Positions 563-25,144 of a DNA stretch of 25,355 bases are shown in pieces. The notes beneath the pieces are model-generated. The model did not search any database and was not told the origin of the DNA. It was given only the letters and a program-made list of their open reading frames with translations. This DNA is from a virus. Numbering within the stretch: position 1 is the first letter of the stretch; every line of letters begins with the position of its first letter. The stretch covers positions 1 through 25,355 of IMG/VR virus record IMGVR_UViG_3300043313_000634; one strand, given 5' to 3'. A program made the translations under genes and the position numbers.

Positions 563-603
563 CGACATTGCCCAGTGGGTCACGCTCCCACTGGGCAATG
601 TCG
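563..603 (-). terminator. Strong 17-bp hairpin after the lysis cassette
   Basis: The arms 563-579 and 587-603 are perfect 17-bp complements around a 7-nt loop (TCACGCT). It lies 35 bases beyond the holin stop, so it most likely ends the lysis transcript. The minus-strand flank is A-rich rather than T-rich, so it is not a classical intrinsic terminator. The stem is built from two oppositely oriented copies of the dispersed CCCA(C/G)TGGG motif. Confidence 0.6.
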
Positions 604-638
604 ATCGGAGCAGCGACGTTACTCGCGCATCACGATGG

Positions 639-986
639 TTAGGGTGCCTCCTCTGGTGGCACACTTGCCACAACCTGGGGACGCACGCCGAGGAGAGCTG
701 CCGCCGTTGCGACGAGAGTTAGGAAGAGACCCTGCTGCTCGGGTGTCCAGTGTAGACCGAATGATACAGCGACGGCGATGAGTGCCTTCGCCAGCCCAAC
801 GATGGCCGGGACAAACTTCTCCCTGGCGACCAGCGCTGCGGTGATGAAGCCGAAGATGGCAGCGACTGCGGCGTTGAGCACGCCCTGCTGCACATCACTC
901 AGGGGGAAGATGAACGCACTGAGCACAGCGATCGCTGATGTTAGAAACGCCATGATGAGTGCTGGTTCACGTCCAAAAATTCTCAC
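639..986 (-). CDS. Putative holin (3-4 membrane segments)
   Basis: This is a 115-residue, strongly hydrophobic protein with likely membrane segments near residues 11-27, 36-54, 62-78 and 86-100, and a short proline/glutamate-rich tail. Size, topology and its place as last gene of a cassette that begins with a lysin fit an actinophage holin, which permeabilises the cytoplasmic membrane at lysis. The GTG start overlaps the upstream stop by 4 nt (GTGA), and AGGAGAG precedes it, so translation is probably coupled. The assignment rests on context and hydropathy, not on a specific motif. Confidence 0.7.
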   Translation of the reverse strand: MRIFGREPALIMAFLTSAIAVLSAFIFPLSDVQQGVLNAAVAAIFGFITAALVAREKFVPAIVGLAKALIAVAVSFGLHWTPEQQGLFLTLVATAAALLGVRPQVVASVPPEEAP

Positions 987-1348
987 TGCTCTCTCCTAAT
1001 GGGTGGTGGTTCTTCCGGTATGTTCCATACCGAACGATGCGCACGCCGCGTGAGAACCTGTACACGTGCGATAATCAGAAGCCACCTCAACATCACCGTT
1101 CCGATGATCGCGCAAATGACTGCACGCGGTGGCATTGTTGACGAGTACTCATGAAGAGGACGAATGAAGGTGATTGAGACAAACCAGTAGTCGATAATGA
1201 TTGCGAGACACGCCTTCGTTACCATGAACTGACGCCCAACCTGTGTTTTTTCCCACTGGGTGAACGCATACGTCGCAACGAGTGCCGTTGTGACGAGTGC
1301 TGCGTATGCGAGCGAGACATAACTCGCAATGAACCAGAACTTGTTCAT
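983..1348 (-). CDS. Lysis-cassette membrane protein (121 aa)
   Basis: The protein has three probable membrane helices (about residues 5-29, 46-62 and 76-96) and a basic, proline-rich C-terminus (RRAHRSVWNIPEEPPPIRREQ region). The ATG follows the preceding stop directly (TAGATG), and the gene's own stop overlaps the holin start. Many actinophage lysis cassettes carry a second or third small membrane protein next to the holin, and this probably plays that role as a second holin or holin modulator. I do not recognise a named family with certainty. Confidence 0.65.
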   Translation of the reverse strand: MNKFWFIASYVSLAYAALVTTALVATYAFTQWEKTQVGRQFMVTKACLAIIIDYWFVSITFIRPLHEYSSTMPPRAVICAIIGTVMLRWLLIIARVQVLTRRAHRSVWNIPEEPPPIRREQ

Positions 1349-1537
1349 CTAACGTGTGCTCCGCAGTATCTGCTCGATGAGCGGTGCGAGATGATTAGGT
1401 CGACGAACACTATCACGCAGTGATGTCGCAACTTTCTCAACTTCTTCTCGCTGTGCGACGATGTTGTCGCGTACGTTTCGTGCCTCTTGTAGCTTCTCTG
1501 ATGGTCCCCGCTTAAGCAACTTAGTAAGCCAGCTCAT
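1349..1537 (-). CDS. Small helical lysis-cassette protein (62 aa)
   Basis: This 62-residue protein has an amphipathic, basic N-terminus (MSWLTKLLKRG) followed by a long heptad-like charged helix, consistent with a coiled coil. It ends in a segment resembling the small partner proteins that sit beside the one-helix membrane protein in actinophage lysis cassettes. The ATG overlaps the upstream stop by 4 nt (ATGA), which indicates translational coupling. It may bind the membrane or the neighbouring coiled-coil protein. The function is inferred from position only. Confidence 0.6.
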   Translation of the reverse strand: MSWLTKLLKRGPSEKLQEARNVRDNIVAQREEVEKVATSLRDSVRRPNHLAPLIEQILRSTR

Positions 1538-1794
1538 GAGATCTCAGTCTCTTTTGTAGCGACATCCTTGAGTGCCTTGAATGTGGCATCCGCGACGTGC
1601 GCCGATTCGAGGAGCTTACTATTCTGTCGCAGAAGTTCGTTGGCACTCTGCATCCACGTATCTCGCTGCTGCTTCATCTCGCGGTAGAACCTAACCGGTA
1701 CGAGAAGACCTGTGAGAATTGAGATGATGCAGAGTGACAACAACCCAGTGGGGCCCCACTCACGAAGAAAGATCTCGAGCGAAAGGCCATTCAC
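1534..1794 (-). CDS. Membrane-anchored coiled-coil protein of lysis cassette (86 aa)
   Basis: One membrane helix near residues 14-33 (PTGLLSLCIISILTGLLVPV) is followed by a charged helical stretch (residues 37-65) likely to form a coiled coil. This architecture is common immediately downstream of actinophage lysins and is sometimes compared with spanin-like or holin-like proteins. The start is GTG at 1794, just after the lysin stop, with a poor ribosome site, so translation may depend on ribosomes finishing the lysin. The coding sequence contains a perfect 14-bp palindrome at 1747-1760 that includes a copy of the dispersed repeat. Confidence 0.6.
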   Translation of the reverse strand: MNGLSLEIFLREWGPTGLLSLCIISILTGLLVPVRFYREMKQQRDTWMQSANELLRQNSKLLESAHVADATFKALKDVATKETEIS

Positions 1795-1798
1795 TTGA

Positions 1799-2734
1799 TT
1801 AGGAATCTTCAGCCTTGTTTACCGCGCCAACGAGCGCCGCTTGTCCAGCCGGTGACTCGAGTGCCGCAGTCACCGTTTCCGCGGACACCTCGACACTCAA
1901 ATGCTCGGCCAGCACCGCAGCGAGTGCGACTGCGTCGTATGTCGGCCGCGCCTGTAGTTCGTCGAGGTCGGCCTGTGTGACACCCTGCGCGTGAAGAACA
2001 GCGTCGAGCTTCGCGTTGATGGCCGCGGTCGCGTCGGATGCCTTGTTCGGCCACGGGATGGTCGCGGTCGGATTTGCGGCGACCGGAATGATCGGAACTG
2101 GACCCGCGTGAACGCCAACTAGCTGACGTAGCCACGCATCGATGTTGTATAGTAGGTTGTGTTCGTCAGGCGTCAGCATGTCGTCTCCCAGTGGTGTGTT
2201 TGTGATGGCTGCGGCGATGATCTGCTCGACGCGTGTGAGTGTCACCGTACGTGCCATCGTCCCGGCGGTGTTGCGCCAAAACTCTAGGTGCGTGTGAATC
2301 GTCACCGAGTCCGTTGACGAGATGATGCCTTGCTCTGGATGAAGTGTGTCATATCGACGTTGTGATACTCCATCAGGCGAGAAGTTTACCGCTCGCAGGG
2401 TAGACAGTGCTGGGTCACCACTGCGTAGTTGCGCGACGAGGAGGTTGTTGAATCGCAGCCACGCGGCTCGACCGCCGCGTGGCCAGTCATCACCGATGTC
2501 TTCCGCACTGGCTACGTTCCCACCGACGCGATCACGAGGCTGACGTGTGGAGTAGTCGCCGTCCGGATACGTGCCAAGGTCACGAATGTCTTGGACACCG
2601 CAGTGATAGCCGCCACCACTCTTGTGAGATTGATCGGGCTTGATACCAAGCGCCCCACTGGTGATCGTTAGCCCGGTTAGCACAGCGACACGCTCACGAT
2701 GTGCAACGATGTCACCCGGTGCGATTGTTTCCAT
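1799..2734 (-). CDS. Putative lysin with M15-like zinc peptidase domain
   Basis: This is a 311-residue protein. Residues about 20-155 show the pattern of an M15-type (D-Ala-D-Ala peptidase-like) fold: SHKSGGGYHCG near 36-46, SAEDIG at 76-81 and HTHLEFW at 147-153, giving His, Asp and His as probable zinc ligands. The C-terminal half (170-311) is alpha-helical and alanine-rich and may bind the wall or mediate assembly. As first gene of the lysis cassette it probably cleaves peptidoglycan stem peptides. It has its own extended -10 promoter (2764-2774) and a strong GGGGAGG site 6 nt before the ATG; that site overlaps a CCCACTGGG copy. A tail-associated hydrolase is the main alternative. Confidence 0.6.
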   Translation of the reverse strand: METIAPGDIVAHRERVAVLTGLTITSGALGIKPDQSHKSGGGYHCGVQDIRDLGTYPDGDYSTRQPRDRVGGNVASAEDIGDDWPRGGRAAWLRFNNLLVAQLRSGDPALSTLRAVNFSPDGVSQRRYDTLHPEQGIISSTDSVTIHTHLEFWRNTAGTMARTVTLTRVEQIIAAAITNTPLGDDMLTPDEHNLLYNIDAWLRQLVGVHAGPVPIIPVAANPTATIPWPNKASDATAAINAKLDAVLHAQGVTQADLDELQARPTYDAVALAAVLAEHLSVEVSAETVTAALESPAGQAALVGAVNKAEDS

Positions 2735-2763
2735 AACGTCCTCCCCACTGGGTGGTTCAACTG

Positions 2764-2774: not shown

Positions 2775-2788
2775 TTCGCGCACATAGC

Positions 2789-2856: not shown

Positions 2857-3243
2857 TCAGATAGCGACTGACTCTTCCACGGGTGCGGCCGCCGACTCAT
2901 CCGAGGTCACGGCAGGAGCCTCGTTCGCAGGAGCCTCGCCAGCCACCCATCGAACGGCGCCACCACTGGACGTCTTGTGGATCTCGCCGTCACGCTTCAG
3001 TCGCCAGAGCGACAGGTAGACCTCGTTCGCGGGGAGCTCAGTGCCCTTCGCGATGTCGTCCTTGGACTGGCCCTCGGTCTGCTGCGCGAGGTACTCGAGG
3101 ACCTTGGCGTCGCGCTCGAGCGTCGCCTGCGGACGCGGACGGCCTCCACCACTCGCATTGGCGACGGGCGCCTCGGTGGCACCCTCGGTCGGCGTCTCAC
3201 CCTCGGTGACGGGAACGGCGGGCGCCTCAACAGGCTCGGTCAT
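2857..3243 (-). CDS. Winged-helix DNA-binding protein, internal in-frame start
   Basis: Inside the methyltransferase frame, TTGGAGGAAACATC immediately precedes an ATG at 3243, an ideal ribosome site with 7-nt spacing. From there a 128-residue protein is encoded. It has a low-complexity P/A/E/T-rich N-terminus (1-35), a GGGRPRPQ basic hook, and a winged-helix core (LERDAKVLEYLAQQ, then SKDDIAKGTELPANEVYLSL, then LKRDGEIHK, then a wing GGAVRWV). It closes with a low-complexity acidic tail. I infer that this was, or still is, an independent gene whose upstream neighbour lost its stop codon. It probably binds DNA as a regulator. Confidence 0.55.
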   Translation of the reverse strand: MTEPVEAPAVPVTEGETPTEGATEAPVANASGGGRPRPQATLERDAKVLEYLAQQTEGQSKDDIAKGTELPANEVYLSLWRLKRDGEIHKTSSGGAVRWVAGEAPANEAPAVTSDESAAAPVEESVAI

Positions 3244-4518: not shown

Positions 4519-4908
4519 TCACCCAGTGGGGCTGGTGTAGCCCTCATCGATGCGTTCGTGGTTGATACCGTTCTTGCGGAGATATCGTCTGAAGAACTCT
4601 TTCGCGTCACAGTTCGCGACGATCAGGAGATTCATGAAGAAGTGAAACGCGTCAACGAGTTCGTCGACGAACGCGTCACGATTCATGCCGTCGGCGTTGC
4701 TCCATGGTTTCCACGCCGTTTCACGCAGCGCCTCGTGGAGCTCGTCCGTGGTGGCGAGCACCATCGTGCGAATGTAGTCTTTCTGCTCGTCATGCTGCAG
4801 CTCCCAAGGTAAACGTCCCTTGAGGTAGCGCTGCTGTAGCTTCACCTGAAGATAAAGCATCTCTTTGAGGCAGTCTTCATGCACCGCGTCATCCCATTCG
4901 TTCATCAT
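4519..4908 (-). CDS. All-alpha dUTPase/dCTPase (dUTPase_2 / MazG-like)
   Basis: This is a 129-residue all-helical protein with the two acidic metal-binding motifs of the all-alpha NTP pyrophosphatase superfamily: ELHE at 56-59 and DELVD at 82-86. It also has the dimeric dUTPase_2-like elements WKPW (66-69), HFFMNLL and a terminal KN-x-N-x-R-x-x-x-GY stretch. It hydrolyses a dNTP, probably dUTP and/or dCTP, to the monophosphate plus pyrophosphate; T4 gp56 (dCTPase/dUTPase) belongs to this superfamily. Such an enzyme would supply dCMP/dUMP to the thymidylate-synthase-like enzyme and remove normal dCTP. The ATG overlaps the epimerase stop by 4 nt. Confidence 0.75.
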   Translation of the reverse strand: MMNEWDDAVHEDCLKEMLYLQVKLQQRYLKGRLPWELQHDEQKDYIRTMVLATTDELHEALRETAWKPWSNADGMNRDAFVDELVDAFHFFMNLLIVANCDAKEFFRRYLRKNGINHERIDEGYTSPTG

Positions 4909-7113: not shown

Positions 7114-8159
7114 CACCAACCACCCTGTGCGCGACGAACGTCTGCAATCCAGTGGGAAAAGGCTCGCACTGTGTTGTGCGGAAGAATACCCGTGTTTTCA
7201 GCAGCGATGAAGAGATCTGCCGTCATGGCGATCGGCGAGTCTGAGTCTGATGCAAAGCGTGCCTCACGAAGAGCCTTGATGATCGTTTCGTTGTGTTTCA
7301 TGCCGAAGATCTCTGCCTTGAGATCCTTGATGAGATCGTGCGGATTGCGGTCCTGATGCACCACTGGGTGACCGTAGTACGCTCCCCAGCCAAGCTGATC
7401 CATCACCGCACGTGTGAGGTAGCTGGCCCAGATGTCATCATAACGACCAACATGTGGCCACATGAACATCGCGGGAGCGAGTTCCGCGCGAAACATCGTG
7501 GCCTGCGTGTTGAACGGTGCCCACGTGCCAGGAGTCACAACGACGTCGTCATGATAGATGCGAGTGATCTCAGGATCTGAGACGATGCGTTCCACAGCGT
7601 CAATGTCCGGTGCACCGGTCCACAGCATCGCAGCGACACCGATGGGACACTTGGCATCAGCTGTGATAAATGGCTTGATGTGTCGCTGACTGAGCGGAAA
7701 GCCGCGGTGTGTGACGAAACGATAGTCATTCGTCATGCATGAGCGACCTGGGTTGTACCATCCCGTGTTCGTCTTGCTGAAGTCGTGCTTGTCACTCTCG
7801 ATCGCAGTGATGAGACGCTCGACCTGGTTCTTTTGCGTGGGAGCGTTGTCGTCATCGATGGTGAGGATATATCGAGGATTGTGCTCCATCGCATTAAGCA
7901 GCGCGATGTTTCGACGCTGGATACAGTTCCAGCCGATGACCTCGGAGACAGCGTACCGCTCCTGCACGTCTGGTGTGAGATACACAGTGTCGACACCGGT
8001 GGACTCGCTGATCTCAATGAGCAGATCGATGATCTCATCGTGTGGCGACTTCTTATCACCCGCGATGACGATAAGATCATCCTTCGTCATGCTGGTTGCC
8101 CACTGGGTGAGCACGGTTGGAACGTTGATGGTCGTGGTGATGAGCGCAATGCGCGTCAC
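7113..8159 (-). CDS. Putative GT-A glycosyltransferase, RGP/STELLO-like
   Basis: The 348-residue protein starts with a nucleotide-sugar-binding strand (RIALITTTINVP), has VIAGDKKSP at about 31-39 and the metal-binding DDDN at 102-105 (YILTIDDDNAPT). It continues with features reminiscent of reversibly glycosylated polypeptides / UDP-arabinopyranose mutases (GT75) and STELLO-like proteins: HRGFPL, GAPDIDAVERI and FNTQATMF. It may transfer a sugar or interconvert a UDP-sugar. The GTG at 8159 overlaps the upstream stop by 4 nt (GTGA) and GGAGAGG precedes it, so I prefer it to an upstream in-frame start. Together with the epimerase and the second transferase it forms a sugar module. Confidence 0.6.
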   Translation of the reverse strand: MTRIALITTTINVPTVLTQWATSMTKDDLIVIAGDKKSPHDEIIDLLIEISESTGVDTVYLTPDVQERYAVSEVIGWNCIQRRNIALLNAMEHNPRYILTIDDDNAPTQKNQVERLITAIESDKHDFSKTNTGWYNPGRSCMTNDYRFVTHRGFPLSQRHIKPFITADAKCPIGVAAMLWTGAPDIDAVERIVSDPEITRIYHDDVVVTPGTWAPFNTQATMFRAELAPAMFMWPHVGRYDDIWASYLTRAVMDQLGWGAYYGHPVVHQDRNPHDLIKDLKAEIFGMKHNETIIKALREARFASDSDSPIAMTADLFIAAENTGILPHNTVRAFSHWIADVRRAQGGW

Positions 8160-8999: not shown

Positions 9000-9737
9000 C
9001 TACATCTCCATCATCTGTACGTTCGCAAAGATGGTCTTCATCATCTCCGCGATGTTTGGCTGCTCGATGTCATCGGGCAGTGTTCCCTGGACACGCTCAC
9101 CGGACTCGAACTGTGGGTGTGGTCCGATCCAGAGCTTTCGCACCTTCTTCGTTGGCTGCCCGTTCTCATCCATTGTCATACCCACGTAGAGGTACCCACA
9201 GATGTCGACGAGGTACGGCAATGACACACCGATCTGCCCCTGCATGTACGGGCGCCACTTGCCCTTGTCCTCACGTGTCTCCGCGATCATCGTCACACAG
9301 CGAACGGGAATCGGCAGCAGTGTGAGGTCACGGTACGCACGGATCGTGCTGTCCATCTTCGTGAGCAGCTGCCCCCAGTCCTGGATCTGCATCGCATCGG
9401 TGCCCTTGAGATTCTGCTTGAGGCGACGCTGGATCTCGGTGATGGAGTCGATGACCACGGAGACGAAGTCATGCTCGACCTGGGTGAGGTGTCGGTAGAT
9501 CTGGTCAACCTGTGCCCACTGGGTAATCGTCACAACGCAGGCGTCCCACGTGCCGTCGTAGCGCGGGATTGGCTGAGACATCGGATCCCAGTAGATCTTT
9601 CGCACCTTGATGAACTTCCAGGATCCCTCTGCGTCGAGCACGAGCACGGGTGGTGGTGCCGTTGACGACAGCGTTGACTTACCCACCTTCGCTGCGGCAT
9701 GAATGAGCACAGAGAGTGTCTCAGTCTTCGTTGTCAC
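9000..9737 (-). CDS. Sak4-like RecA-fold ATPase (phage AAA)
   Basis: This is a 245-residue P-loop ATPase with an atypical Walker A (HAAAKVGKST, 13-22), LVLDAEGSW at 33-40, and a Walker B strand (FVSVVIDSITEI, Asp97). Size, early P-loop and the pairing with a DUF669-like protein match Sak4-type recombination ATPases, which promote annealing or strand exchange with a partner ssDNA-binding protein. The GTG start at 9737 is chosen because upstream residues (MVRSRRAR) look non-native. It overlaps the preceding 37-aa gene by 17 nt. The Cas4/RecB-like nuclease upstream completes a probable recombination module. Confidence 0.75.
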   Translation of the reverse strand: MTTKTETLSVLIHAAAKVGKSTLSSTAPPPVLVLDAEGSWKFIKVRKIYWDPMSQPIPRYDGTWDACVVTITQWAQVDQIYRHLTQVEHDFVSVVIDSITEIQRRLKQNLKGTDAMQIQDWGQLLTKMDSTIRAYRDLTLLPIPVRCVTMIAETREDKGKWRPYMQGQIGVSLPYLVDICGYLYVGMTMDENGQPTKKVRKLWIGPHPQFESGERVQGTLPDDIEQPNIAEMMKTIFANVQMMEM

Positions 9738-9834
9738 TCGAGCTCTTCTTGATCTTACCACCGAAGATCGCGATCGTGGTCAGTGCGACGGAGATCGATC
9801 CAATCGAGATTGCGATTGACGCGGGCCAGTTCAC
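9721..9834 (-). CDS. 37-aa single-pass membrane microprotein
   Basis: A GTG at 9834 overlaps the nuclease stop by 4 nt (GTGA), with GAGGTG 6 nt upstream. It encodes 37 residues: one hydrophobic helix (about 5-25, ASIAISIGSISVALTTIAIF) and a basic-then-acidic tail (GGKIKKSSSDNED). The coupled start, the overlap into the ATPase gene and the clean membrane profile argue that it is real. Its role is unknown; it might tether the recombination proteins to the membrane. The small size leaves some doubt. Confidence 0.6.
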   Translation of the reverse strand: MNWPASIAISIGSISVALTTIAIFGGKIKKSSSDNED

Positions 9835-10892
9835 TTCATCACCTCATCACGGTAGTAGTACGCGAGTGGGTCACCCGCGACGTAGTACTGATCGATCATA
9901 GACTCCACTCGTGAGCCATCATTGAAGAGTGGGCAGATGACTCGATAATCACATGACCACGAGCAGTCACCCAGTGGGTTAGGATACGCTACATTCTGGT
10001 GATCACGTCCCTCATCGAGACGTTCCTCTAGCTTGAGGAGGTCGTGCACGGTTCCCCACAGCTGCTGGTAGAACGCTTGCACTTGATGATGATTGTGCAA
10101 CACTTCCTCACGCATGAAGAACGGTGGCTTGGCCTTCACCGTCCGCTTCACACGTCGAAGCATGTTGTAGATGGCACCACCGGAACGCTCACCGGCGGGA
10201 GTGTTTGTGAGGATCTCGATCAGATCATACCAGAGCATCTGCTCATCGATGGCGAGGCCACTGCTCTTTGAAGAGAAGTCAGCGACAGTCTTGTGGTCAA
10301 CGAAGCGAAGTACTTCATCAGTGAGTCGACGAACCTTCGCATCGAGCTTAGCAATGATGAAAACAGCGAGTTCACCTCGTCCTTGAACTCCTGGGAGAAG
10401 TGCATCTTGATACGTCTCGGAGGCGAGTACTTCATAGTTATCGTCAGCTCCCGTTTCGTTGAGCCACTGGACGTAACCAGCGATCATGGCCCGCTCGAGG
10501 TCGTCGTCCTTCTTCATCGTCAGTAGGATGCCGGCGATGTTGTCGTCATTCTTGAACTTCTGAACGACCTGCTCTGTGTCACTCTTGATCAGGTCCTCGA
10601 GTGCTGCTCGAGGATCTCTCGCCAAAGCTCGGTCAGGGACGTACCACTGCGCAAGCGCTCGATGGACTCGATCACCCACTGCTCTGACCCCGGTAGGTGA
10701 CTCCTTGGCGAGTCGGAGTCCGCGGTACCACGCGAGCCACCACTTACGACGGCATCGCTTGAACGTTGCGACCTCGCTGTGCGAGATGAGCCGCGCATCT
10801 TGGCGAAGAGTGATCTGCCTTGCGCGATCTTGATAGTGAGAAAACGGGTCGATGAGCGTCGACGGTGTCTCGCTTGCGCTCCCACTGGTCAC
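9831..10892 (-). CDS. PD-(D/E)XK nuclease, Cas4/RecB-like with Fe-S cysteines
   Basis: This is a 353-residue nuclease. It has an early Cys47 in ISHSEVATFKRCRRKWW, the usual start of Cas4/AddB-like enzymes. The core metal site is a strand with Asp then a D-x-K (LRFVDHKTV, about 197-205). A C-terminal cysteine cluster (DCSWSCDYRVICPLF) would complete a 4Fe-4S cluster with Cys47. It probably acts as a single-strand or end-processing exonuclease in recombination with the neighbouring Sak4-like ATPase. The GTG start overlaps the helicase stop (GTGA). Confidence 0.8.
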   Translation of the reverse strand: MTSGSASETPSTLIDPFSHYQDRARQITLRQDARLISHSEVATFKRCRRKWWLAWYRGLRLAKESPTGVRAVGDRVHRALAQWYVPDRALARDPRAALEDLIKSDTEQVVQKFKNDDNIAGILLTMKKDDDLERAMIAGYVQWLNETGADDNYEVLASETYQDALLPGVQGRGELAVFIIAKLDAKVRRLTDEVLRFVDHKTVADFSSKSSGLAIDEQMLWYDLIEILTNTPAGERSGGAIYNMLRRVKRTVKAKPPFFMREEVLHNHHQVQAFYQQLWGTVHDLLKLEERLDEGRDHQNVAYPNPLGDCSWSCDYRVICPLFNDGSRVESMIDQYYVAGDPLAYYYRDEVMK

Positions 10893-13483: not shown

Positions 13484-15260
13484 CTGTCTTCTTCCCCCAT
13501 CGCTCTCCATACGCGAGACCCGCGGTGACGGGAACACTCAGCATCTTGTCGTCGTTCATGATGTCTCTGAGTGTTGTGATGACATCTTCGTACTCATCGT
13601 TGGGAACGTCGAGGATGACCTCATCATGCACAGCGAGAATCATGCGATTACCAAGTCCAGCGTTCTCCAGCTCGATGAGCTTCATCTTGAACATCTCCGC
13701 GGCCAGGCCCTGGACGAGGTAGTTTACGAGTGCATATTCCTTGCCGTCATCCGACGGATGACGACGATGCGTGAGAGGAGAGCGGACGTAGCCGACTCCC
13801 TCGGCAGTTTTACGCTCAAGAGCAGTTCGCTGGACACGGTTCTGAAAAGCACGAACGCCGGGAAACGAAGCGTCAAAGGCGTGCATAGCGGCCGCCGCTT
13901 GCTCCTCTGAGATGTGAGCCGTGAGTGCCAGCTTCGTGATCCCGGCACCGTAGATCTTGCCGTAACCCACGTTCTTGACGACTTGGCGACGTGGATCTTT
14001 CTTGGACGAGATCGTCTGATCATTGAAGACAGATCGAGCGAGCTCGATGAAGAAGTCGTTCGGTGAAAGGAACGCATCTCGTAGTCCTTGATCTTGAGAC
14101 ATGTGAGCTAGGCCACGCATCTCGATCTGGTCGAAGTCGCAGAACACGAGGCGGCCGTCGCCTCCGTAGCGGGTGGTGTAGCAGTTCCGTACAGTTGTTG
14201 CCGCGGGGTTGGATTCCGATGCTCTGGGGAGGTTCTGCAGGTTCGGTTGTGCCATCGACATCCGGCTGGTCCGAGCACCCAGTGGGTTGATGCTGGGGTG
14301 CATGAGATCGTCTGCGTCTGCCTCGGCAACGATGTGGCTCAGGTTTGTCGACGATATCTTTTGAAGCTTACGACGCGAGAGAACGGCCGTCGCCAGCGGA
14401 TGATCAATATCCGCGAGTACCTCCGCGTCGAGAGATGCAGCGCCACCCTTGGTTCGCTTTGTGAACTCGAAGCCCTCTCGAAGTAGAACGCCAATGATGG
14501 CCTGGTTCGACCCGGCTGAGATGCCATATGTGTCCTTAACCCACCGGGCGGTGTCGACGCAGTACTTCTCGTACTTCTTGAGGTACTCGGCGGCGTACGC
14601 GCGGTCGACGTGTGCGCCGTTCTCTTCCATTCGCTGGGTCACCCACGAGGCACCGAGTTCAACCTCGTAGCCACGCCACGATCCATCTCGCTTAACCGCG
14701 TCCTGGTGGTGCATGAAGAGACGCTTCGTGAGGATCGGATCGAGCGCACCGTACGACCAGTACGGCTGGAAGTCGATCGGCACGGTTGCCCACGTCCAAC
14801 CACCAGACTTGCCGATCGCATTGTCGAGCTCGTCCTGCATCGACGCCGCTCGTGCGTCGACGTATCTCGAGGCGAGTGTCTTGAGTGCGGTGGAGTACGT
14901 GGGTTCGAGAATATGCGCCATAGGACGAGTGTCGTGAAGCCGATCACGAGGTAGAGACACCCCAACACGGTCCAGAAATCGCCAGTCGAAGCTAACGAAG
15001 TTGTGTCCAACCCACCAACCGTCCCATTTGCGAACAACCTCACGAACGACGCCACCCCAGTCCTCCCAGGGGATGGACCAGCCAGTCATCTCATCGCCGA
15101 CCTGGACGAGGCGCACTCGATCATGACGCTGCTTGAGACCAGTCGTCTCGATGTCGACTCCGAGCACCTCATCTGGTCGTCGCTCACCCAGCCAGCGCAT
15201 GAGTGCGAATGCCTCGTCCACTGAATCCACAAGATGTAGCGATACATTATCCAGTGACAA
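13473..15260 (-). CDS. Family A DNA polymerase with 3'-5' exonuclease
   Basis: The 595-residue protein carries the exonuclease motifs DIET (36-39), a motif II region GHNFVSFDWRFL (85-96) and YGALD (170-174). The polymerase motifs are A (CDFDQIE, 374-380, Asp375), B (RRQVVKNVGYGKIYG, 424-438) and C (VHDEV, 544-548). There is no 5'-nuclease domain, as in most phage polymerases. Tyr433 sits where E. coli Pol I has Phe762. The likely start is TTG at 15260, overlapping the deaminase stop; no ATG lies nearby. This is the replicative polymerase of the phage. Confidence 0.92.
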   Translation of the reverse strand: MSLDNVSLHLVDSVDEAFALMRWLGERRPDEVLGVDIETTGLKQRHDRVRLVQVGDEMTGWSIPWEDWGGVVREVVRKWDGWWVGHNFVSFDWRFLDRVGVSLPRDRLHDTRPMAHILEPTYSTALKTLASRYVDARAASMQDELDNAIGKSGGWTWATVPIDFQPYWSYGALDPILTKRLFMHHQDAVKRDGSWRGYEVELGASWVTQRMEENGAHVDRAYAAEYLKKYEKYCVDTARWVKDTYGISAGSNQAIIGVLLREGFEFTKRTKGGAASLDAEVLADIDHPLATAVLSRRKLQKISSTNLSHIVAEADADDLMHPSINPLGARTSRMSMAQPNLQNLPRASESNPAATTVRNCYTTRYGGDGRLVFCDFDQIEMRGLAHMSQDQGLRDAFLSPNDFFIELARSVFNDQTISSKKDPRRQVVKNVGYGKIYGAGITKLALTAHISEEQAAAAMHAFDASFPGVRAFQNRVQRTALERKTAEGVGYVRSPLTHRRHPSDDGKEYALVNYLVQGLAAEMFKMKLIELENAGLGNRMILAVHDEVILDVPNDEYEDVITTLRDIMNDDKMLSVPVTAGLAYGERWGKKTDVD

Positions 15261-15879: not shown

Positions 15880-16717
15880 GATACCACCTCTCACTGTTCG
15901 TCTCATTGTCGAGTGGGTCGTTGTTGATGATGTTCACCGCGCGTCCCGTGATGATGGTAAATGGATCACCCACACGTCCGATGCCATCTGGCTGCCAGAC
16001 CTTCGCGTAAGATTCACGAGCCACTCGAGGAGACCAGCCATCAAGTAGTTCAGTCGCTGCAGCGTGATTTCTCTCATAGAGATGAAGTGATAGTGCCGTG
16101 TGTCGATACACTCCTGGTTCGAGATGAAGTGCACTGGCGATGGACGACTGCAGCTGTGTGAATTGGAACACGTCATATGGAAGACCGAGCCACGCGTCAT
16201 TTGATCGCATGATTGTGTTCATGCACAGCGTTGCGTCCTGCACGAAGAACTGCAGCGCGATCGTACACGGATAATCGTGCTTCCCGTTCACGTTATCGAG
16301 CCACGGATCCCACAACGTGATCACTGCCTGGCGAGTATCATGATCAAGCACAATCTTACGAGTTGCGAGATGCGCTTGCATCTTGATGCGTTCGCCATAC
16401 GCACCCCAGAACATCCGCTCGGAATGATCATACTCCGCTGGATCGGTATACCGCTCCATCTGCGGAGCGAGTCTCAGGACGAGCTCAGGGTCTGAGATGC
16501 CCGCGATCAACTGGATTGCCTCGACGGCACCGATGGCTGGGTTGAGCTTGCGACCGATGCCAAGTGGCATGCCGCCCAGTGGGTTGAGCAGCACAATGCT
16601 AGTGAATCCAAGGTCAGTGGTAGGCAAGCCACGTGGGCTCCGCCACTCTCCATACTGGAAGATGCGACGAAGCACCTGTGGGTACTCACTCATGTTGTGG
16701 AGTACGATCTCACTCAT
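15833..16717 (-). CDS. Thymidylate-synthase-fold enzyme, predicted dCMP (hydroxy)methylase
   Basis: The 294-residue protein shows the thymidylate synthase fold: WGAYGERI (104-111), active-site Cys151 (YPCTIALQFFV), the phosphate-binding Arg-Ser (RSND, 171-174), EPGVYRH and LHLYERN (211-217). The spacing from Cys151 to Arg171 is exactly as in E. coli (146 to 166). The residue equivalent to Asn177, which selects dUMP, is Asp182 (LGLPYD). Asn-to-Asp at this site is the established feature of dCMP hydroxymethylases and of engineered dCMP-preferring synthases. It therefore probably makes 5-hydroxymethyl-dCMP or 5-methyl-dCMP with methylenetetrahydrofolate. The start could be 16717 or, 24 nt on, 16693; both follow ACAAC. 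Confidence 0.75.
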   Translation of the reverse strand: MSEIVLHNMSEYPQVLRRIFQYGEWRSPRGLPTTDLGFTSIVLLNPLGGMPLGIGRKLNPAIGAVEAIQLIAGISDPELVLRLAPQMERYTDPAEYDHSERMFWGAYGERIKMQAHLATRKIVLDHDTRQAVITLWDPWLDNVNGKHDYPCTIALQFFVQDATLCMNTIMRSNDAWLGLPYDVFQFTQLQSSIASALHLEPGVYRHTALSLHLYERNHAAATELLDGWSPRVARESYAKVWQPDGIGRVGDPFTIITGRAVNIINNDPLDNETNSERWYRERLHGDKSEAADVG

Positions 16718-17316: not shown

Positions 17317-18217
17317 TCTGCATCACATCCTTGATCGCCTGTCCGTATCGCTCCATCTTTGCGTAGTGGAACCGACGCTCATGCTGCGGGTGATTGAGGT
17401 AGTGCGCAGACTGAATCGTCACGCCGGTCATCCATGCTCGCTGTGCGTTGCGGCCGAGTGTGATGACGGGTGGTCTGCCGAGTGCATCCCACTGGGTGAG
17501 CAGTTGCTGTGCGTTCGTCTCGTTCGCGTTCATGATGCCAACGTGCATGTGGTTCACGTCCGCCGCGTGAAGTGCACCCATGAGCCAGTGCCCGGATGTC
17601 GCTCGAGCGGGAACGAACGGAAAGACGAATCGATGATCTGCGCGTTCATCACCCAGGAGCAGCACCTTGGGATTGCGAGGACCGATGTACGACCCGGCCA
17701 TTGGTGATTGTGGACGCTCTCTCATCTCGAAACCATGATGATCGATGCCAACGGTCTGCTGCCCCGCCCAGTGGGAACGTTGACTCATCCACTCGCTGTA
17801 GTCATGGTAGAGATCCGCGAGCCACTCACGCTTGATGAGACCGTCGCCACGCACGTCCCATCGCTGCTCGAGGACGCGTGGTGACTCGGTGACGTACGTG
17901 AAGTTGCAACCGAAGGTCTGGAGCACCATGTCGATGTAGTCCGCCTGCTGCCCCGTGAGAAGACTCTTGCCACGCAGGAGTGGTCCGTAGAAGAGCTCGC
18001 CTACGTGCCAACGATCGAGGATGAGCCACCTGGGACGAACGAGCATGGGCTCGTAGCACCAGTCCTGGATGGGACGAAGGTACTGCTCAAGGATGTCCAC
18101 TGACCCACTGGGTGGTCCCTGCTTGAGACATTCCGCATTGACGAGTCGCGCAGACAATTGTCGCGCGAGGGTAGATTTACCGACGAGATCGGGACCCTCG
18201 AGGACGATGATGGCCAT
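17309..18217 (-). CDS. Thymidylate-kinase-like P-loop domain fused to a UDG-like domain
   Basis: The 302-residue protein has two parts. Residues 1-160 form a nucleoside-monophosphate kinase: P-loop EGPDLVGKST (7-16), LDRW (67-70) with the following GELFYG, and an arginine-bearing lid region (QRWDVRGDGLIKREW). Residues 175-302 have the layout of the uracil-DNA-glycosylase fold: KVLLLGDERAD (184-194), SGHWLMGAL (208-216), VITLGRNAQRAW (251-262) and NHPQHERR (275-282). The kinase part would phosphorylate dTMP and perhaps hydroxymethyl-dCMP, as T4 gp1 does. The second part may recognise or excise a base, or be inactive. The ATG at 18217 follows AGGATCAAGTT. Confidence 0.7.
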   Translation of the reverse strand: MAIIVLEGPDLVGKSTLARQLSARLVNAECLKQGPPSGSVDILEQYLRPIQDWCYEPMLVRPRWLILDRWHVGELFYGPLLRGKSLLTGQQADYIDMVLQTFGCNFTYVTESPRVLEQRWDVRGDGLIKREWLADLYHDYSEWMSQRSHWAGQQTVGIDHHGFEMRERPQSPMAGSYIGPRNPKVLLLGDERADHRFVFPFVPARATSGHWLMGALHAADVNHMHVGIMNANETNAQQLLTQWDALGRPPVITLGRNAQRAWMTGVTIQSAHYLNHPQHERRFHYAKMERYGQAIKDVMQNG

Positions 18218-18226: not shown

Positions 18227-18625
18227 CTAGCCGATCGTGGCGAACTGTGTCGCCCACTGGGCGCGCTGGTACGGGTCAGTGAGTTGATTCTTGGGCTGCC
18301 GCACGAAGAGGAACTCTGCCGTTGACTGGGTGAGGACGGTGACGAGTCGGTCACCGATGTACGGCATCCAGTCGTCCGCTACACGCACGTTGCGTACCGC
18401 CGAGTATCGACCACGCCGACCCACTTGCGAGTACATCTCGAGGTCCTCAACGATTCCCTCGAGGACATCACGTGTGGTCTCATCGACGTGCATGACGTGT
18501 CGAGCGGTGGTCATCGACTCGTACGGATCCGGTACGGTGATCTGTGAGATGAGAATGAGGATGAGTCCAAACAAGATCACGACAGACGGTGCGGCGATGA
18601 ACGCCAGCGTCTCGAGATCATTCAT
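18227..18625 (-). CDS. Membrane-anchored hypothetical protein (132 aa)
   Basis: One strongly hydrophobic helix (about residues 7-30, LAFIAAPSVVILFGLILILI) anchors a soluble domain of about 100 residues. That domain contains an acidic helix (DETTRDVLEGIVEDLEMYSQV) and a beta region (NVRVADDWMPYIGDRLVTVL). It is most likely a single-pass inner-membrane protein with its C-terminus on one side; orientation is not clear. No family is recognised. GGAAG lies 12 nt upstream of the ATG. It lies between the secreted-type gene and the kinase fusion. Confidence 0.6.
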   Translation of the reverse strand: MNDLETLAFIAAPSVVILFGLILILISQITVPDPYESMTTARHVMHVDETTRDVLEGIVEDLEMYSQVGRRGRYSAVRNVRVADDWMPYIGDRLVTVLTQSTAEFLFVRQPKNQLTDPYQRAQWATQFATIG

Positions 18626-19234: not shown

Positions 19235-19259
19235 GATGATCCTCCTCTCATCTCAACGT

Positions 19260-19327
19260 GGGACGGGAGGGACTCGAACCCTTCGTCTCTGCCGTCGCAT
19301 AGCTCTCTCCCGTTGAGCTACCGTCCC
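19260..19327 (-). tRNA. tRNA-like gene with a degenerate anticodon arm
   Basis: The minus strand has a perfect 7-bp acceptor stem (GGGACGG with CCGTCCC), TA at 8-9, a D-arm beginning GCTC, and a T-arm with loop TTCGAGT and the invariant GG-TTCGA. Only 68 nt separate the acceptor ends, about 4 fewer than normal. The best anticodon stem (CTATG with CAGAG, one mismatch) closes a 6-nt loop CGACGG that lacks U33, so no anticodon can be assigned. No CCA is encoded. It may be a decayed tRNA, a tRNA mimic, or a tRNA missing a base. Confidence 0.6.
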
Positions 19328-21101: not shown

Positions 21102-21317
21102 ATGACGGTAACCGTGTCGGCGGACGCAACCGCCGCGGAGAAGATCACAGCGAGCGTAAAGGGTAAGTCGTGGCGGGCGGACCAACGTGGCTTTTGCCTG
21201 CGACTGTCGGTTGAGGTGGACAGGTACGTCCGTGACCAGGCCAAGCGTCGCGGCATGTCCATCACAGCGATCATCAACGAGGCGCTGGCGGAGCACGCGA
21301 CCGTCCGCCTACGGTAA
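21102..21317 (+). CDS. Ribbon-helix-helix (Arc/CopG-like) DNA-binding protein
   Basis: This is a 71-residue protein. Residues 29-70 show the RHH layout: a strand (GFCLRLSVEVD), a first helix (DRYVRDQAKRRG) and a second helix (SITAIINEALAEHA). Such proteins dimerise through the strand and bind operators. The N-terminal 25 residues are a polar extension. It is the first rightward gene, has its own promoter, appears leaderless, and is followed at once by a strong terminator, so it is a monocistronic regulator. Candidate targets are the inverted repeat at 20921-21010 or the dispersed CCCASTGGG sites. Confidence 0.75.
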   Translation: MTVTVSADATAAEKITASVKGKSWRADQRGFCLRLSVEVDRYVRDQAKRRGMSITAIINEALAEHATVRLR

Positions 21318-21384: not shown

Positions 21385-22440
21385 ATGCCAGATCAGATTC
21401 TACCACAGAACGTCGATCCACAGTTAAAGATCTTGATCGCACGCCGATACCAGGAACTCGGGTGGCCAGTCTTCGTGCTCGGATCTGGTAAGACACCGAT
21501 CCGCAACTGCCCACGCTGTGACTCACGGCGACCAGACACTTACGTTCGTCACTCACCCAGTGGGTGTCACTGTCTCACGTGTCATGGCTTCTACGCCGCA
21601 TCACTGGATTGTGATAAGGTTGCGGCGCAGGTAGCCGCGCGACCGGATGGGATGTTAGCCGTTCGCACCGGTGGCGTCAGTCGCCTACTGGTCATCGATG
21701 CGGAGTCGAGTGCGGCTACCGTAGATGACGTAGACGTGACTGGTCTGGGTGTCCTGGACTCGTGGGAATCATGGGTCGAGGGTGCATGGTCACTTCCCGT
21801 AACGCTGCGGCAGCGAACGTCATCGGGCGGGTTGCACCTCGTGTATCGTCTGCCCGTTGGCATGGCGATCGGTTGTCACAACCGCATTCTCCCGCAGGTG
21901 GACATCAAGGCAGACAGTGGGTACATTCTCGTCGCTGACGGCTCAGATGATCGTCACTGGCTAGACCCCGTGGAGACACTCGCGGACGCACCGCCGGAGA
22001 TGCTACGGTGGATCTCCTCCAGCATCGGCCGGAGTGTGATGAGTGGCGGTCGTGGCGCGGGTCGTGGTCAGCTGCTCAAGGGTGAGGACTATGAGCGAGC
22101 ACTGCGCGAGGGTGCGCGTGACGGTGAGCGTGAACCATTCTTCGCAACACTGTCGTTTAGGCTGCGAAAGGCGGGTAAGACCGAGCAAGAGATCTTTGAG
22201 ACAATGTACGCCCACTGGGAGGCATGCGCACAGCCACCCGAGGCTACGGCTTACTTTCACTGGTCATACGTTGAGTACAAGATCGAGCGTGATCGCAACA
22301 TTCAACCAGACGTACTCCCCGTGCAGCGGAAGTGGGTCCAGCGCTTTGGCTCTAGTGCCTCTTCCACGACGATGAGTGAACATAGGAAGGCCGGTCGAAT
22401 CACTGTGGTGACACCTACGAAGTCTTGGCGGTCACGTTGA
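21385..22440 (+). CDS. Bifunctional primase/polymerase (Prim-Pol, AEP family)
   Basis: The 351-residue protein begins with a zinc-ribbon-like segment (Cys42-x-x-Cys45, then Cys61, Cys63, Cys66 in CHCLTCHGFYAAS). The archaeo-eukaryotic primase core follows: VIDAES (104-108; Asp105 and Glu107 as metal ligands), SGGLHLVYRLP and VDIKADSGYILVA. It synthesises primers, and possibly extends DNA, at the replication start, in partnership with the helicase encoded next. The start is ATG at 21385 with GGAGG 6 nt upstream. A longer in-frame reading back to 21187 crosses the terminator and the RHH gene and is not real. Its end overlaps the helicase start. Confidence 0.85.
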   Translation: MPDQILPQNVDPQLKILIARRYQELGWPVFVLGSGKTPIRNCPRCDSRRPDTYVRHSPSGCHCLTCHGFYAASLDCDKVAAQVAARPDGMLAVRTGGVSRLLVIDAESSAATVDDVDVTGLGVLDSWESWVEGAWSLPVTLRQRTSSGGLHLVYRLPVGMAIGCHNRILPQVDIKADSGYILVADGSDDRHWLDPVETLADAPPEMLRWISSSIGRSVMSGGRGAGRGQLLKGEDYERALREGARDGEREPFFATLSFRLRKAGKTEQEIFETMYAHWEACAQPPEATAYFHWSYVEYKIERDRNIQPDVLPVQRKWVQRFGSSASSTTMSEHRKAGRITVVTPTKSWRSR

Positions 22441-23936
22441 CCGACGTCGAGGAAACCACGCTCACGATCGATCAGGTTCTCGCGCAGGTAGAGCCAGAGT
22501 TTCTGACGCTCACCGATGACGGCAACGGACGACGCTTCGCCGATCTCTTTGATGGCATCATTCGCTACGTCATCGACCTGGATCAGTGGCTGGTCTGGAA
22601 CGGGAAGTGCTGGGAACCAGACATCGGTGGGCTCAAGGTTCTCGCACTGGTCGCGGGACTGACACGGTGGTATCGCGCGGAGGCAGAGGACGCATCGAAC
22701 GAGGAACCAGAGAACGGCGGTGACTCGCCACGTGAGCGACTACGAAAGCACGCCACAGCGACGGAGTCGCTGGACTCAAGGCAACGCACGGTGAAGATCG
22801 CGCGTACGCTGAAGGAACTGCAGGTAACGGAGGATGAACTCGATAGCAATGCACATCATCTCGTGGCGCAAGATTGCACGATCAACCTGCAGACGGGTGA
22901 GCGCATCAAGACAAGCGCCGAGCAGATGAACACACGTGTGCTCAACGTCGCGTATGACCCAGAGGCGACGTCGCCGTTTCTCACGCAGTATCTGGAGACG
23001 TTCATTCCAGAGCCGGAGGATCAAGATGTGATCTTTGCGATCCTAGGTAACGCACTTCGCGGGGGCAACATTGGTCGTCTCTTCCCAATCATTGTGGGTA
23101 ACACGACGTCAGGTAAGTCACAACTCGTTGAGGCGCTCGAGGCGCTCCTGGGTCGCTACACGACGAGCATCGGCTCAAGCATCTTTCGCGGCAACCTGGA
23201 TGATAAGCCACGACCAGACCTCGTAAAGGCGATGTACACGCGGCTGGCGATCGCGGTGGAGGCATCAAAGCAGTGGGAGCTACACGCGGATCAGATGAAG
23301 CGACTCACGGGTGGTGAGCGAGTCCCATACCGTGGTCTGTATCAAGGAAGCATCGAGGCGAAGCCGCGATTCACACCGCTCATCGTCACAAACGAGATGC
23401 CACGCATCAAGGGCGCAGACACGGCACTTAAGCGTCGTGTCATCGTCATGCGCTTTGATCATACGCTGCCAAAGGAGAAGGAAGACACTCGCATCAAGGA
23501 GCGATTCATTCACGACACGCGGTGTCAGCAGGCACTCGTGGCGCGTCTCGTACGGGGAGCGCGCAGCCCAATGGTAGTGAATGGTCTTCGTTGGGATCTC
23601 GTGCCACAGCGATTCGCATTAGAGACCATGGAGTCGTTCGGGCAGATGAATCACGTGGATGAGTGGCTCATGTGGATGCGCACCGAGGGTCGCCTGCATG
23701 ACGCCGTGGATGGTCCACTGACGTCGATGGCGAAGGCGTCTGTGCTTCATCGATGGTACACGCTGTGGGTCAATGAGCACGGCGATAAGAACGATAAGCA
23801 GGAGGCATTGAGCCTCAAGGACCTCGGTGTCGCGCTTCGTGAGCGTGGTTGGGAGTCAAAGCCAAGTGCCGGTATGCGGTGGATCGGCCGCCGTCTCACG
23901 CGTGGCGACGAGATTCCCATCATGGGTTGGCTGTAG
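22425..23936 (+). CDS. SF3 helicase (D5/P4-type phage DNA helicase)
   Basis: This is a protein of about 500 residues with a D5-type N-terminal region (residues 30-200) and a superfamily 3 ATPase core. The core has Walker A GNTTSGKS (225-232), Walker B RLAIAVEA (273-280) and motif C FTPLIVTNE (316-324, Asn323), then an RRVIVMRFDHTLP strand. It unwinds DNA as a hexamer next to the Prim-Pol. The start is TTG at 22425 or TTG at 22437; the latter overlaps the primase stop by 4 nt (TTGA), the same device used at 24446. Neither has a strong ribosome site, so translational coupling is likely. Confidence 0.88.
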   Translation: MAVTLTDVEETTLTIDQVLAQVEPEFLTLTDDGNGRRFADLFDGIIRYVIDLDQWLVWNGKCWEPDIGGLKVLALVAGLTRWYRAEAEDASNEEPENGGDSPRERLRKHATATESLDSRQRTVKIARTLKELQVTEDELDSNAHHLVAQDCTINLQTGERIKTSAEQMNTRVLNVAYDPEATSPFLTQYLETFIPEPEDQDVIFAILGNALRGGNIGRLFPIIVGNTTSGKSQLVEALEALLGRYTTSIGSSIFRGNLDDKPRPDLVKAMYTRLAIAVEASKQWELHADQMKRLTGGERVPYRGLYQGSIEAKPRFTPLIVTNEMPRIKGADTALKRRVIVMRFDHTLPKEKEDTRIKERFIHDTRCQQALVARLVRGARSPMVVNGLRWDLVPQRFALETMESFGQMNHVDEWLMWMRTEGRLHDAVDGPLTSMAKASVLHRWYTLWVNEHGDKNDKQEALSLKDLGVALRERGWESKPSAGMRWIGRRLTRGDEIPIMGWL

Positions 23937-23967: not shown

Positions 23968-23975
23968 GAGGTGAG

Positions 23976-24099
23976 GTACAAACGGGAGACAGACTGCGTA
24001 CAATCACGAGACACAAGATCAAGAAAGATCGGAGGAGAACGATGGATCTTGATGTTTTGAAGCAATTGTACGCAGTTTGTACACTGGCTGAAGTCTCCC
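23976..24099 (+). promoter_or_regulatory. Nested inverted repeats flanking a leader ORF
   Basis: ACTGCGTACAAT (23993-24004) and ATTGTACGCAGT (24065-24076) are perfect 12-bp inverted copies. Outside them, GGGAGAC (23984-23990) pairs with GTCTCCC (24093-24099), and GTACAAA (23976-23982) with TTTGTAC (24076-24082). The GTACAA core thus occurs four times, two per strand. The 60-nt loop holds the ribosome site and start of the 22-codon ORF. It could be an attenuator-like RNA or an operator/iteron cluster. Confidence 0.5.
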
Positions 24100-24110
24100 A
24101 CTTACTGTGA
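24042..24110 (+). CDS. Candidate 22-residue leader peptide
   Basis: CGGAGGAGAACG places a strong ribosome site 4 nt before the ATG at 24042. The 22-residue peptide runs from MDLDVLKQLY to AEVSHLL and resembles the first part of a helix-turn-helix. Its start lies in the loop, and its second half inside the right arm, of the inverted repeat described here. It could be a regulatory leader or the stub of a lost DNA-binding protein. Confidence 0.4.
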   Translation: MDLDVLKQLYAVCTLAEVSHLL

Positions 24111-24111
24111 T

Positions 24112-24265
24112 TTGATCTTCGTTTACCAACATCAGTGTATTATTCTTCTCTATTTTGTAAGCTGTAAGGGAGAGGGTGGAAAAAGTTAGATCTAACGTAC
24201 GCATGTATACGCGCTAGCGCGCTAGAAGTGAAATTATCGAGGCACCAGCTTTCAGCTTACAAATC
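24112..24265. other. Palindrome-rich, A/T-richer noncoding region: candidate replication origin or control site
   Basis: No gene is seen here. An 11-bp inverted repeat (TTTGTAAGCTG at 24154-24164, CAGCTTACAAA at 24253-24263) encloses several palindromes: GTTAGATCTAAC (24185-24196), GCGCTAGCGC (24211-24220) and CTAGCGCGCTAG (24214-24225). There is also a 20-nt stretch of strict purine/pyrimidine alternation (24195-24214). The position just after Prim-Pol and SF3 helicase genes suits an origin. A recombination or packaging site is an alternative. Confidence 0.45.
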
Positions 24266-24287
24266 ACTGTTGATCAGTAGTTAGATC

Positions 24288-24449
24288 ATGGCACATCATA
24301 GGTTTACCTGGGATCAGGAGGCAAATGATCTCTACGACAGTGGGTACGCTTGCCTCTGCGGTGTGACGTATAACCCAAGTGAAGTCATGGAGCACATCGA
24401 TGAGGAATGTGAACGCTGGAGTGAGAAGAACGAGAAGGAGGAAAGTTGA
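24288..24449 (+). CDS. Small zinc-ribbon-like hypothetical protein (53 aa)
   Basis: The 53-residue protein has a half zinc-finger pattern, Cys22-x-Cys24 (YACLCGVTY), followed by an acidic helix with His and Cys (MEHIDEECERW). That suggests one bound metal. No good ribosome site precedes the ATG at 24288, and an in-frame stop just upstream excludes a longer start. Its stop overlaps the next TTG start by 3 nt (TTGA), coupling it to the terminase-like gene. Function unknown. Confidence 0.6.
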   Translation: MAHHRFTWDQEANDLYDSGYACLCGVTYNPSEVMEHIDEECERWSEKNEKEES

Positions 24450-25144
24450 TCAGTGATTCGCGCGTAACAGTGTTATCCCGACAGCAAGAATCAGGACGTC
24501 AGGCGGCCGAGCAGCTGTGGCAAAGGCAGGATGACCTAGCGCACTGTCCCGCGATCTGGCAGCGTGGGAGGTTGGTCGGTAAGCGGTGTCCAAGTAGGTC
24601 GGGTCGCGGTGGACCGTACGAGGGTCTCGGTGGACCGTGCATGGCGCACGGTGGTATGAAGAAGCAGGGACGAGCCATTGGAGCATGGATCATGGCACAC
24701 GCATACGCGCAGGAGTACGACGTGTCCCCCTGGGAGGCGTTGCTGCTGGTGATTCGCATCACCGCTGGGAAGTTGCGGTACATCGAGTCGGTGTTGGCGA
24801 CGGCGGAGAGTGATGACGAGCACACGGGAGCCGCGGCCAGCACCCCACTGGGTGAGGTGCGGGGTGGTGCACTCGACGGCGCGCCGATCACAGGGAGGAA
24901 CCTCTCATGGTGGGTGGAGCAGTCGCAGGTGGAGCGGCAGACGCTGGCGAAGGTCTCGAAGGCGGCGATCGACGCGGGTGTGGCGCAGCTACTCATCGAG
25001 CGTGAGCTGCGAGGTGGGGAGGCACTGGCACAGACGTTCGTCAAGGCGCTGGAGGACATGGAGAAGGCGGGGATGACCGAGGAGTCGCTGGAGATCGCTC
25101 GAGGAGTGATGCGAAACCAGTTGCAGCTAGCTCTTGAATCCTGA
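24446..25144 (+). CDS. Putative terminase small subunit (232 aa)
   Basis: The protein has an N-terminal cysteine/histidine cluster (Cys34, Cys48, Cys65, His68 in CMAHGG) followed by helices with the SPWEALLLVIRITAGKLRYIES pattern. That is typical of actinophage small terminases, whose HGG-type segment precedes a helical region. It also has a long C-terminal helical domain (about 150-232) suited to oligomer formation. It would recognise phage DNA for packaging. TTG start with AAGGAGG 4 nt upstream. The neighbouring large subunit is not in the window. A DNA-binding protein of unknown role is the alternative. Confidence 0.6.
   Translation: MISDSRVTVLSRQQESGRQAAEQLWQRQDDLAHCPAIWQRGRLVGKRCPSRSGRGGPYEGLGGPCMAHGGMKKQGRAIGAWIMAHAYAQEYDVSPWEALLLVIRITAGKLRYIESVLATAESDDEHTGAAASTPLGEVRGGALDGAPITGRNLSWWVEQSQVERQTLAKVSKAAIDAGVAQLLIERELRGGEALAQTFVKALEDMEKAGMTEESLEIARGVMRNQLQLALES

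Follow-up and report, generated by a model that had tools for sequence, protein, structure and literature searches.

Among the described systems closest to the one considered here, the stoperators of cluster A mycobacteriophages occupy short intergenic spaces and are aligned with transcription (PMC9283540, PMC6550527), while the primase-polymerase (PrimPol) of phage NrS-1 recognizes 5′-TTTGGTTA and 5′-GTGA/GTGG, and that of plasmid pRN1 recognizes 5′-GTG, through a helix bundle (PMC8718748). The present analysis concerns a 9-bp word, CCCASTGGG (S is C or G), that is dispersed through a viral contig of 25,355 bases (IMG/VR record IMGVR_UViG_3300043313_000634), analyzed as a whole record and called the window below. 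Its copies are instances of a general word, C-C-C-N-C-T-G-G-(G or A)-Y-G-(A), in which N (and the choice of G or A) is fixed in each phage and varies by lineage. The word is kept genome-wide by selection acting on the DNA itself, and the copies of each strand form a separate, evenly spaced series, independent of genes and transcription.

The window contains 19 exact copies of CCCASTGGG, spanning positions 571 to 24852. A first-pass annotation, made from the letters of the window, had reported the same count against about 0.2 expected; dinucleotide shuffling yields 0.21, and none of 100 shuffles reached 19. The enrichment of about 100-fold that it proposed holds against composition (90-fold), but falls to about 37-fold under a third-order Markov model (0.52 expected, P ~2e-23), where the word ranks first among all 9-mers of the window, and to about 4-fold under the strictest null, in which synonymous codons are shuffled while the proteins, the codon usage and the intergenic DNA, including three intergenic copies, are kept (mean of 4.8 copies, maximum of 9 in 500 shuffles). 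The observed count therefore matches neither the codon nor the Markov expectation. When one mismatch is allowed, there are 35 sites versus 5.6 expected, and nine of the 16 additional copies differ at the first or last base, where at least eight had been noted before. The core is strict, with inner single-base variants mostly at background, and the first base allows A or T. Moreover, in each lineage the extension is found on the 3′ side only, which bears out the earlier suggestion that the extended form is directional; the full 12-mer, CCCACTGGGTGA, occurs eight times in the window (five on the plus strand and three on the minus strand). Motif fitting by expectation maximization drifted to codon periodicity and was dropped.

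Relatives were fetched from IMG/VR by their family A DNA polymerase (PolA), giving 23 and then 35 loci (designated by G numbers), and whole contigs were read piecewise. The motif recurs in syntenic metagenome phage contigs and in one probable isolate; going by its identifier, the 61-kb contig IMGVR_UViG_2721755317_000001 seems to stem from an isolate or a single-cell genome. The gene order common to the relatives is PolA, RuvC-like, SNF2 helicase, PD-(D/E)XK exonuclease, Sak4-like ATPase, DUF669, C5 methyltransferase, PrimPol, D5 helicase, terminase, portal and phrog_777 capsid. The closest named phages infect actinobacteria, and actinobacteria are, as judged from these nearest named phages, the probable hosts of this family of soil phages. 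In relatives, CCCASTGGG is found 10 times in 18.8 kb, 9 times in 25.5 kb, 26 times in 65.9 kb and 15 times in 66.7 kb. In particular, five close relatives form one clade with PolA proteins 73-86% identical, and all carry CCCACTGGGTGA (28 copies versus 0.13 expected over 202 kb).

Other lineages carry a different base within the word, with CCCGCTGGA, CCCGCTGGGT or CCCCCTGGGT in place of the window's spelling. The spelling is CCCGCTGGA in G006, G013, G026 and G027, CCCGCTGGG(T) in G012, G023 and G033, CCCCCTGGG(T) in G015, G030 and G031, and probably CATCTGGA in G007. The clearest case is G030 (59 kb), which has 47 copies of CCCCTGGG versus 0.49 expected and 35 copies of CCCCCTGGGT versus 0.04 expected. 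Further, three lineages with different N agree in their flanks, with C before the core and, after it, T/C (almost never G), G and A/G; because of this common flank, the spellings are treated as versions of one site. A clear form of the motif was not found in G009, G018, G021, G032 and G035, and it is weak in G010, G011 and G025; in the stretches read of the five named actinophages DSL-LC01, Big4, Kurnik, phiSAJS1 and GTE6, it is absent or weak.

The conservation of the word was evaluated at codons that specify the same amino acid in both genomes of a pair, where the expectation is taken from the same codons elsewhere in the same pair. Within 4 bases of the site center (the 8-bp core), the third base is unchanged in 81% of such codons versus 53% expected (z = 12.7; the genome pairs are not independent, and 10 of 10 agree). 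Five to eight bases from the center, synonymous conservation is 59% versus 56%, and farther out it is at or below background. Homologous phages thus do not shed their sites freely at synonymous positions. For example, among close relatives, whose nucleotide identity is 70-78%, several sites keep all 12 bases in every genome that aligns there (4519-4530 and 9515). In distant relatives the sites lie at other positions, so that the density is kept while the positions turn over. An artefact of CTGG on coding strands was considered and is excluded by the synonymous shuffles and by the confinement of conservation to the core.

The layout of the sites is indifferent to genes. About 88% are intragenic and about 12% intergenic, which equals the non-coding share; they fall in several reading frames and in both orientations relative to the gene that contains them. 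The mean spacing is about 1-2 kb, which upholds the earlier statement that this is not a CRISPR, as regular short spacing with unique spacers is not seen. With both orientations pooled, the sites are spread more evenly than by chance (combined P = 5e-6). Moreover, when pairs less than 60 bp apart are removed, sites of like orientation are separated by gaps that vary less than in random samples drawn strand by strand (combined P = 1.2e-9), and also less than after permuting the orientation labels over the fixed positions (combined P = 2.2e-4), although the orientation-label signal comes mostly from G030, G015 and G031, the five close relatives share sites, and these P values are not to be over-read.

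Both strands are used, with 281 sites on one and 174 on the other. The strand opposite PolA carries a fraction of 0.62 of the sites in plus-strand genes, 0.60 in minus-strand genes and 0.67 in intergenic DNA, whereas the CTGG background for the same classes is 0.64, 0.42 and 0.55. As the strand share stays steady while the background shifts, orientation follows the chromosome and not transcription. A strong one-strand bias in a first tally (196:119) was discarded, being largely the CTGG background of plus-strand genes; a residual bias is present in minus-strand genes, where 88 of 147 sites are in the plus orientation.

Neighbouring sites that lie very near each other usually face opposite ways. 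A few close inverted pairs, offset by 16-17 bp, recur in G000, G003, G004 and G030, phages with different spellings; they resemble hairpins made from the word and are exceptions to the layout rule. The hairpin proposed earlier at 571/587 proved to be a 17-bp stem without mismatches around a 7-nt loop, and the copy at 2744, noted earlier as next to a ribosome site, lies just upstream of the minus-strand start at 2734. As a separate observation, the longest interval free of sites measures 3.29-3.33 kb in each of six genomes (G000, G001, G002, G003, G015 and G030), which may be a coincidence and may partly reflect shared ancestry.

Together, the indifference to genes, the independence from transcription and the even spacing per orientation argue for a directional DNA machine rather than a repressor. 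We infer that a phage-encoded directional reader exists and, likewise, that it is the phage PrimPol; this identification is tentative, and we hold it at somewhat below an even chance. PrimPol would read the word on a single-stranded template through its helix-bundle domain and would start primers there; both strands would then need a site every 2-4 kb, and a shift in the enzyme's preference would be followed by the genome-wide set of sites. PrimPol is encoded in nearly every family member long enough to hold its gene. A structural model of the window's PrimPol, built from eight relatives and including the C-terminal helices (pLDDT 69), matches, at E <0.001, no PDB folds other than NrS-1 and pRN1 PrimPol; at E <0.05, RepB′ primases join these two as a weak match, and no others do. 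The 3′ half of the word, CTGGGTGA, resembles TTTGGTTA and GTGA, and GTG(A), a short match within a 12-mer, is preferred in three lineages and absent from the CCCGCTGGA lineage. The GTG likeness and the PrimPol fold, taken as a pointer to priming, are suggestive only.

Several observations weigh against PrimPol as the reader. It also occurs in relatives without the word; GTG is missing in one lineage, and a match of three bases within a 12-mer is weak evidence; the structural model has middling confidence, and its fold matches have low TM-scores; and the orientation signal is concentrated in three genomes, as described above. Known primase sites are 3-8 nt long and tolerant, whereas the core of this word is strict, and we know of no primase that needs so long a site. 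The literature searched yielded no primase site long and strict enough to imprint a whole genome. Chi-like sites, too, would be expected to show even spacing and strand asymmetry; at them, a travelling helicase-nuclease, either the host's RecBCD/AddAB type or the phage's PD-(D/E)XK exonuclease and helicase, spares or recombines DNA on meeting a correctly oriented copy, so that each orientation must lie within reach from any break. The recombination hotspot named in the first-pass annotation survives in this form as a live rival, though we consider it somewhat unlikely. It accounts for the even spacing per orientation, the indifference to genes, the strand bias along the chromosome and the all-or-none core; CTGG is common to E. 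coli GCTGGTGG, P. syringae GCTGGCGC and the word, and Chi enrichment is known from phages that lack RecBCD inhibitors (PMC3784561). However, Chi in phages has a median observed-to-expected ratio of about 2-5 at about 0.2 per kb (PMC3784561), as compared to ratios between about 5 and about 100 for the word, at a density of 0.4-1 per kb. Moreover, Chi belongs to the host, whereas the word changes within one phage family and is lacking in named actinophages, and the family has its own Sak4-like recombinase and exonuclease.

The remaining readings are considered less likely. Orientation-independent binding sites of a DNA-organizing or packaging protein (partition, condensation or nucleoid-like) would agree with the even pooled spacing and the near-palindromic outer CCC...GGG, but the orientation labels matter, the 3′ extension is one-sided, and ParB is found in 0 of 23 contigs, which makes them, and with them the partition and condensation options of the first-pass annotation, improbable. 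The stoperator analogy keeps its descriptive part, as the sites are dispersed and asymmetric with a consensus specific to each phage, as in cluster A mycobacteriophages. As a mechanism (repressor or elongation-block sites, or other transcription control) it is very unlikely, since the sites lie within genes in proportion to gene coverage and in both orientations relative to transcription, and no HTH_3 gene is family-wide (above the cut-off in only 2 of 15 contigs). Further, Phage_integrase and serine Resolvase were not detected in 15 motif-bearing contigs, nor ParB_N in 23, and these contigs may be incomplete. Site-specific nicking sites, as in T5, phiKMV or phage tf, would explain a one-base difference between related phages, as the tf/LUZ24 group has a dispersed 9-12-bp consensus that behaves in this way, but tf-type sites are confined to one strand (PMC3517423) and the word is divided 281:174, leaving little probability for this reading. 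Similarly slight prospects attach to a highly iterated word of the cyanobacterial HIP1 type, linked to methylation through the C5 methyltransferase that the phage encodes: HIP words are intragenic, strict, lineage-variable and methyltransferase-associated (PMC4390886), but they are palindromic while the phage word is asymmetric in all lineages, and the methyltransferase family is equally frequent with and without the motif.

The two proteins named in the first-pass annotation as candidate binders are disfavoured as readers of the word. A ribbon-helix-helix (RHH) protein lies directly upstream of PrimPol in 11 contigs including the window (G000, G002-G004, G006, G020, G026, G027 and G029-G031; the G002 contig ends at this protein), and a homologue was not detected in motif-lacking contigs. 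It was rejected as the reader because G000, G003 and G004 have one identical motif but strongly divergent versions of this protein, and other motif-bearing contigs lack it; it is more likely a local regulator. The winged helix of the methyltransferase was also rejected, since its gene family is about equally common in motif-bearing and motif-lacking relatives. Separately, G030, G028 and G012 have an HTH_3-like match in a frame of 478-486 amino acids, which may be a protein of the methyltransferase-winged-helix kind. The positions of the sites and genes are collected in the table.

Table. Copies of the word, inverted pairs, clustered palindromes and relevant genes; positions are those of the window unless another genome is named.
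Feature	Position	Strand	Remarks
Site (CCCACTGGG on minus strand)	571-579	-	Left arm of inverted pair, intergenic
Site	587-595	+	Right arm of inverted pair
Site, full 12-mer	1252-1263	+	12/12 conserved in G002, G004
Site	1744-1752	-	
Site	2744-2752	+	Just upstream of start of gene 1799-2734(-)
Site, full 12-mer	4519-4530	-	Last codons and stop of dUTPase-like gene; 12/12 conserved in G001-G004
Near-site ACCACTGGGTGA	7360-7371	+	One edge mismatch
Site, full 12-mer	8099-8110	+	
Site	9515-9523	+	In Sak4/RecA-like gene; 12-mer in 4/4 close relatives
Site, full 12-mer	9967-9978	-	In PD-(D/E)XK exonuclease gene
Site, full 12-mer	12565-12576	+	In SNF2 helicase gene
Site	14278-14286	-	In DNA polymerase gene; codes NPLG, protein motif explains part
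Site	16575-16583	-	In thymidylate-synthase-like gene
Site, full 12-mer	17488-17499	+	
Site	17767-17775	-	
Site	18104-18112	+	
Site	18253-18261	+	
Site, full 12-mer	21553-21564	-	Within PrimPol gene
Site	22211-22219	+	Within PrimPol gene
Site, full 12-mer	24844-24855	+	
Inverted pair	563-603		Window
Inverted pairs	25280-25305, 48973-48997		G030
Inverted pair	10871		G004
Inverted pair	21481		G003
C5 cytosine methyltransferase	2857-4497		Extra C-terminal winged-helix-like domain, TrmB-type, E 0.0045 (2857-3243)
PD-(D/E)XK (RecB/Cas4-like) exonuclease and SNF2 helicase	9831-12766	-	Alternative directional readers
Small RHH protein	21102-21314	+	Directly upstream of PrimPol; RHH_1 E 0.011
PrimPol (AEP primase-polymerase)	21385-22440	+	C-terminal helix bundle; Pfam Prim-Pol E 5e-19; proposed reader
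D5_N/DUF5906 replicative helicase	22425-23936	+	
Clustered palindromes	33447-33961		L294 (OR003940.1), DSL-LC05-like podophage
Clustered palindromes	2079-2440		L236, DSL-LC05-like podophage
Clustered palindromes	1245-1400		L231, DSL-LC05-like podophage

Other repeated words were encountered during the survey. G018 (IMGVR_UViG_3300005546_000004) and G035, which lack the motif, have other enriched words (CTCGGCGA, 52 versus 15; CAAGATCA, 86 versus 19), possibly codon-driven or alternative codes. In G020 (IMGVR_UViG_3300038996_000001), the CCGAACACC words were rejected as dispersed sites, as they are bunched locally, for the most part in two arrays near 41.0 and 42.0-42.45 kb; dense ACCCGAACACCC clusters lie at about 41030-41430 and 42020-42450, with looser copies at 46-50 kb, and are origin-like or coding repeats. 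Beyond the family, scans for paired words yielded local repeats for the most part, along with a separate group of DSL-LC05-like podophages (with PrimPol, RecB-type exonuclease and SNF2) that carry clustered TGACCCASTGGGTCA palindromes, seven of nine within about 500 bp in DSL-LC05. These include 15-bp palindromes, TGACCCA(G/C)TGGGTCA, around the 9-bp core and beside rightward early genes, and are iteron- or operator-like; they may be due to chance, or to the same kind of reader acting at an origin or operator. When GTDB contigs, plasmids and named phages were searched for a host, no close relative was found, and scans of genome contigs did not find a related prophage. In the window, ARAGORN reports a tRNA without a determined anticodon at 19258-19327, with no Rfam match at the gathering threshold.

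The lineages provide natural replicas (N = A, G, C and probably T) of one strand-directed, genome-wide code under measurable selection. In its fullest form, the PrimPol reading posits a strict word of about 10-12 nt, belonging to a phage replication enzyme, that tiles both strands at regular intervals and whose whole set is rewritten by point changes upon a preference shift; we regard this as possible but doubtful. If true, it would be a genome-wide, co-evolving replication code of a kind not described before. A priming code would show primase specificity shaping whole genomes, and would make site use testable in cells. If the sites are Chi-like, they would supply candidate Chi words, probably for actinobacteria, for which an established Chi word was not found in the literature searched. 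Under either reading, the words can serve as probes for pulling down the reader.

Overall, the word shares features with each of the closest known systems and also differs from each. Like the PrimPol sites of phage NrS-1 and plasmid pRN1, it is directional, those sites being read on one strand, and a PrimPol of the same fold class is present in nearly all family members; unlike those tolerant sites of 3-8 nt, it is longer and strict, and its reading by the window's PrimPol is putative. With Chi (RecBCD/AddAB), it has in common an asymmetric, GC-rich sequence with a CTGG core, over-representation, an intragenic location, dependence on orientation and variation between lineages, but its enrichment and density are far stronger and it changes within a phage family. 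Cluster A stoperators are likewise dispersed and asymmetric, number 20-30 or more and have a consensus that varies from one related phage to another; however, most of them lie between genes, their orientation follows transcription and they depend on an immunity repressor, and the phage word shows none of these features. Cyanobacterial HIP1 is a strict, highly iterated intragenic octamer with lineage-specific replacements, but it is palindromic, chromosomal and linked to specific methyltransferases. Finally, the nick sites of T5, phiKMV and phage tf also form a short dispersed consensus in lytic phages with one-base variation between relatives, but there they are strictly on one strand, whereas the phage word lies on both.

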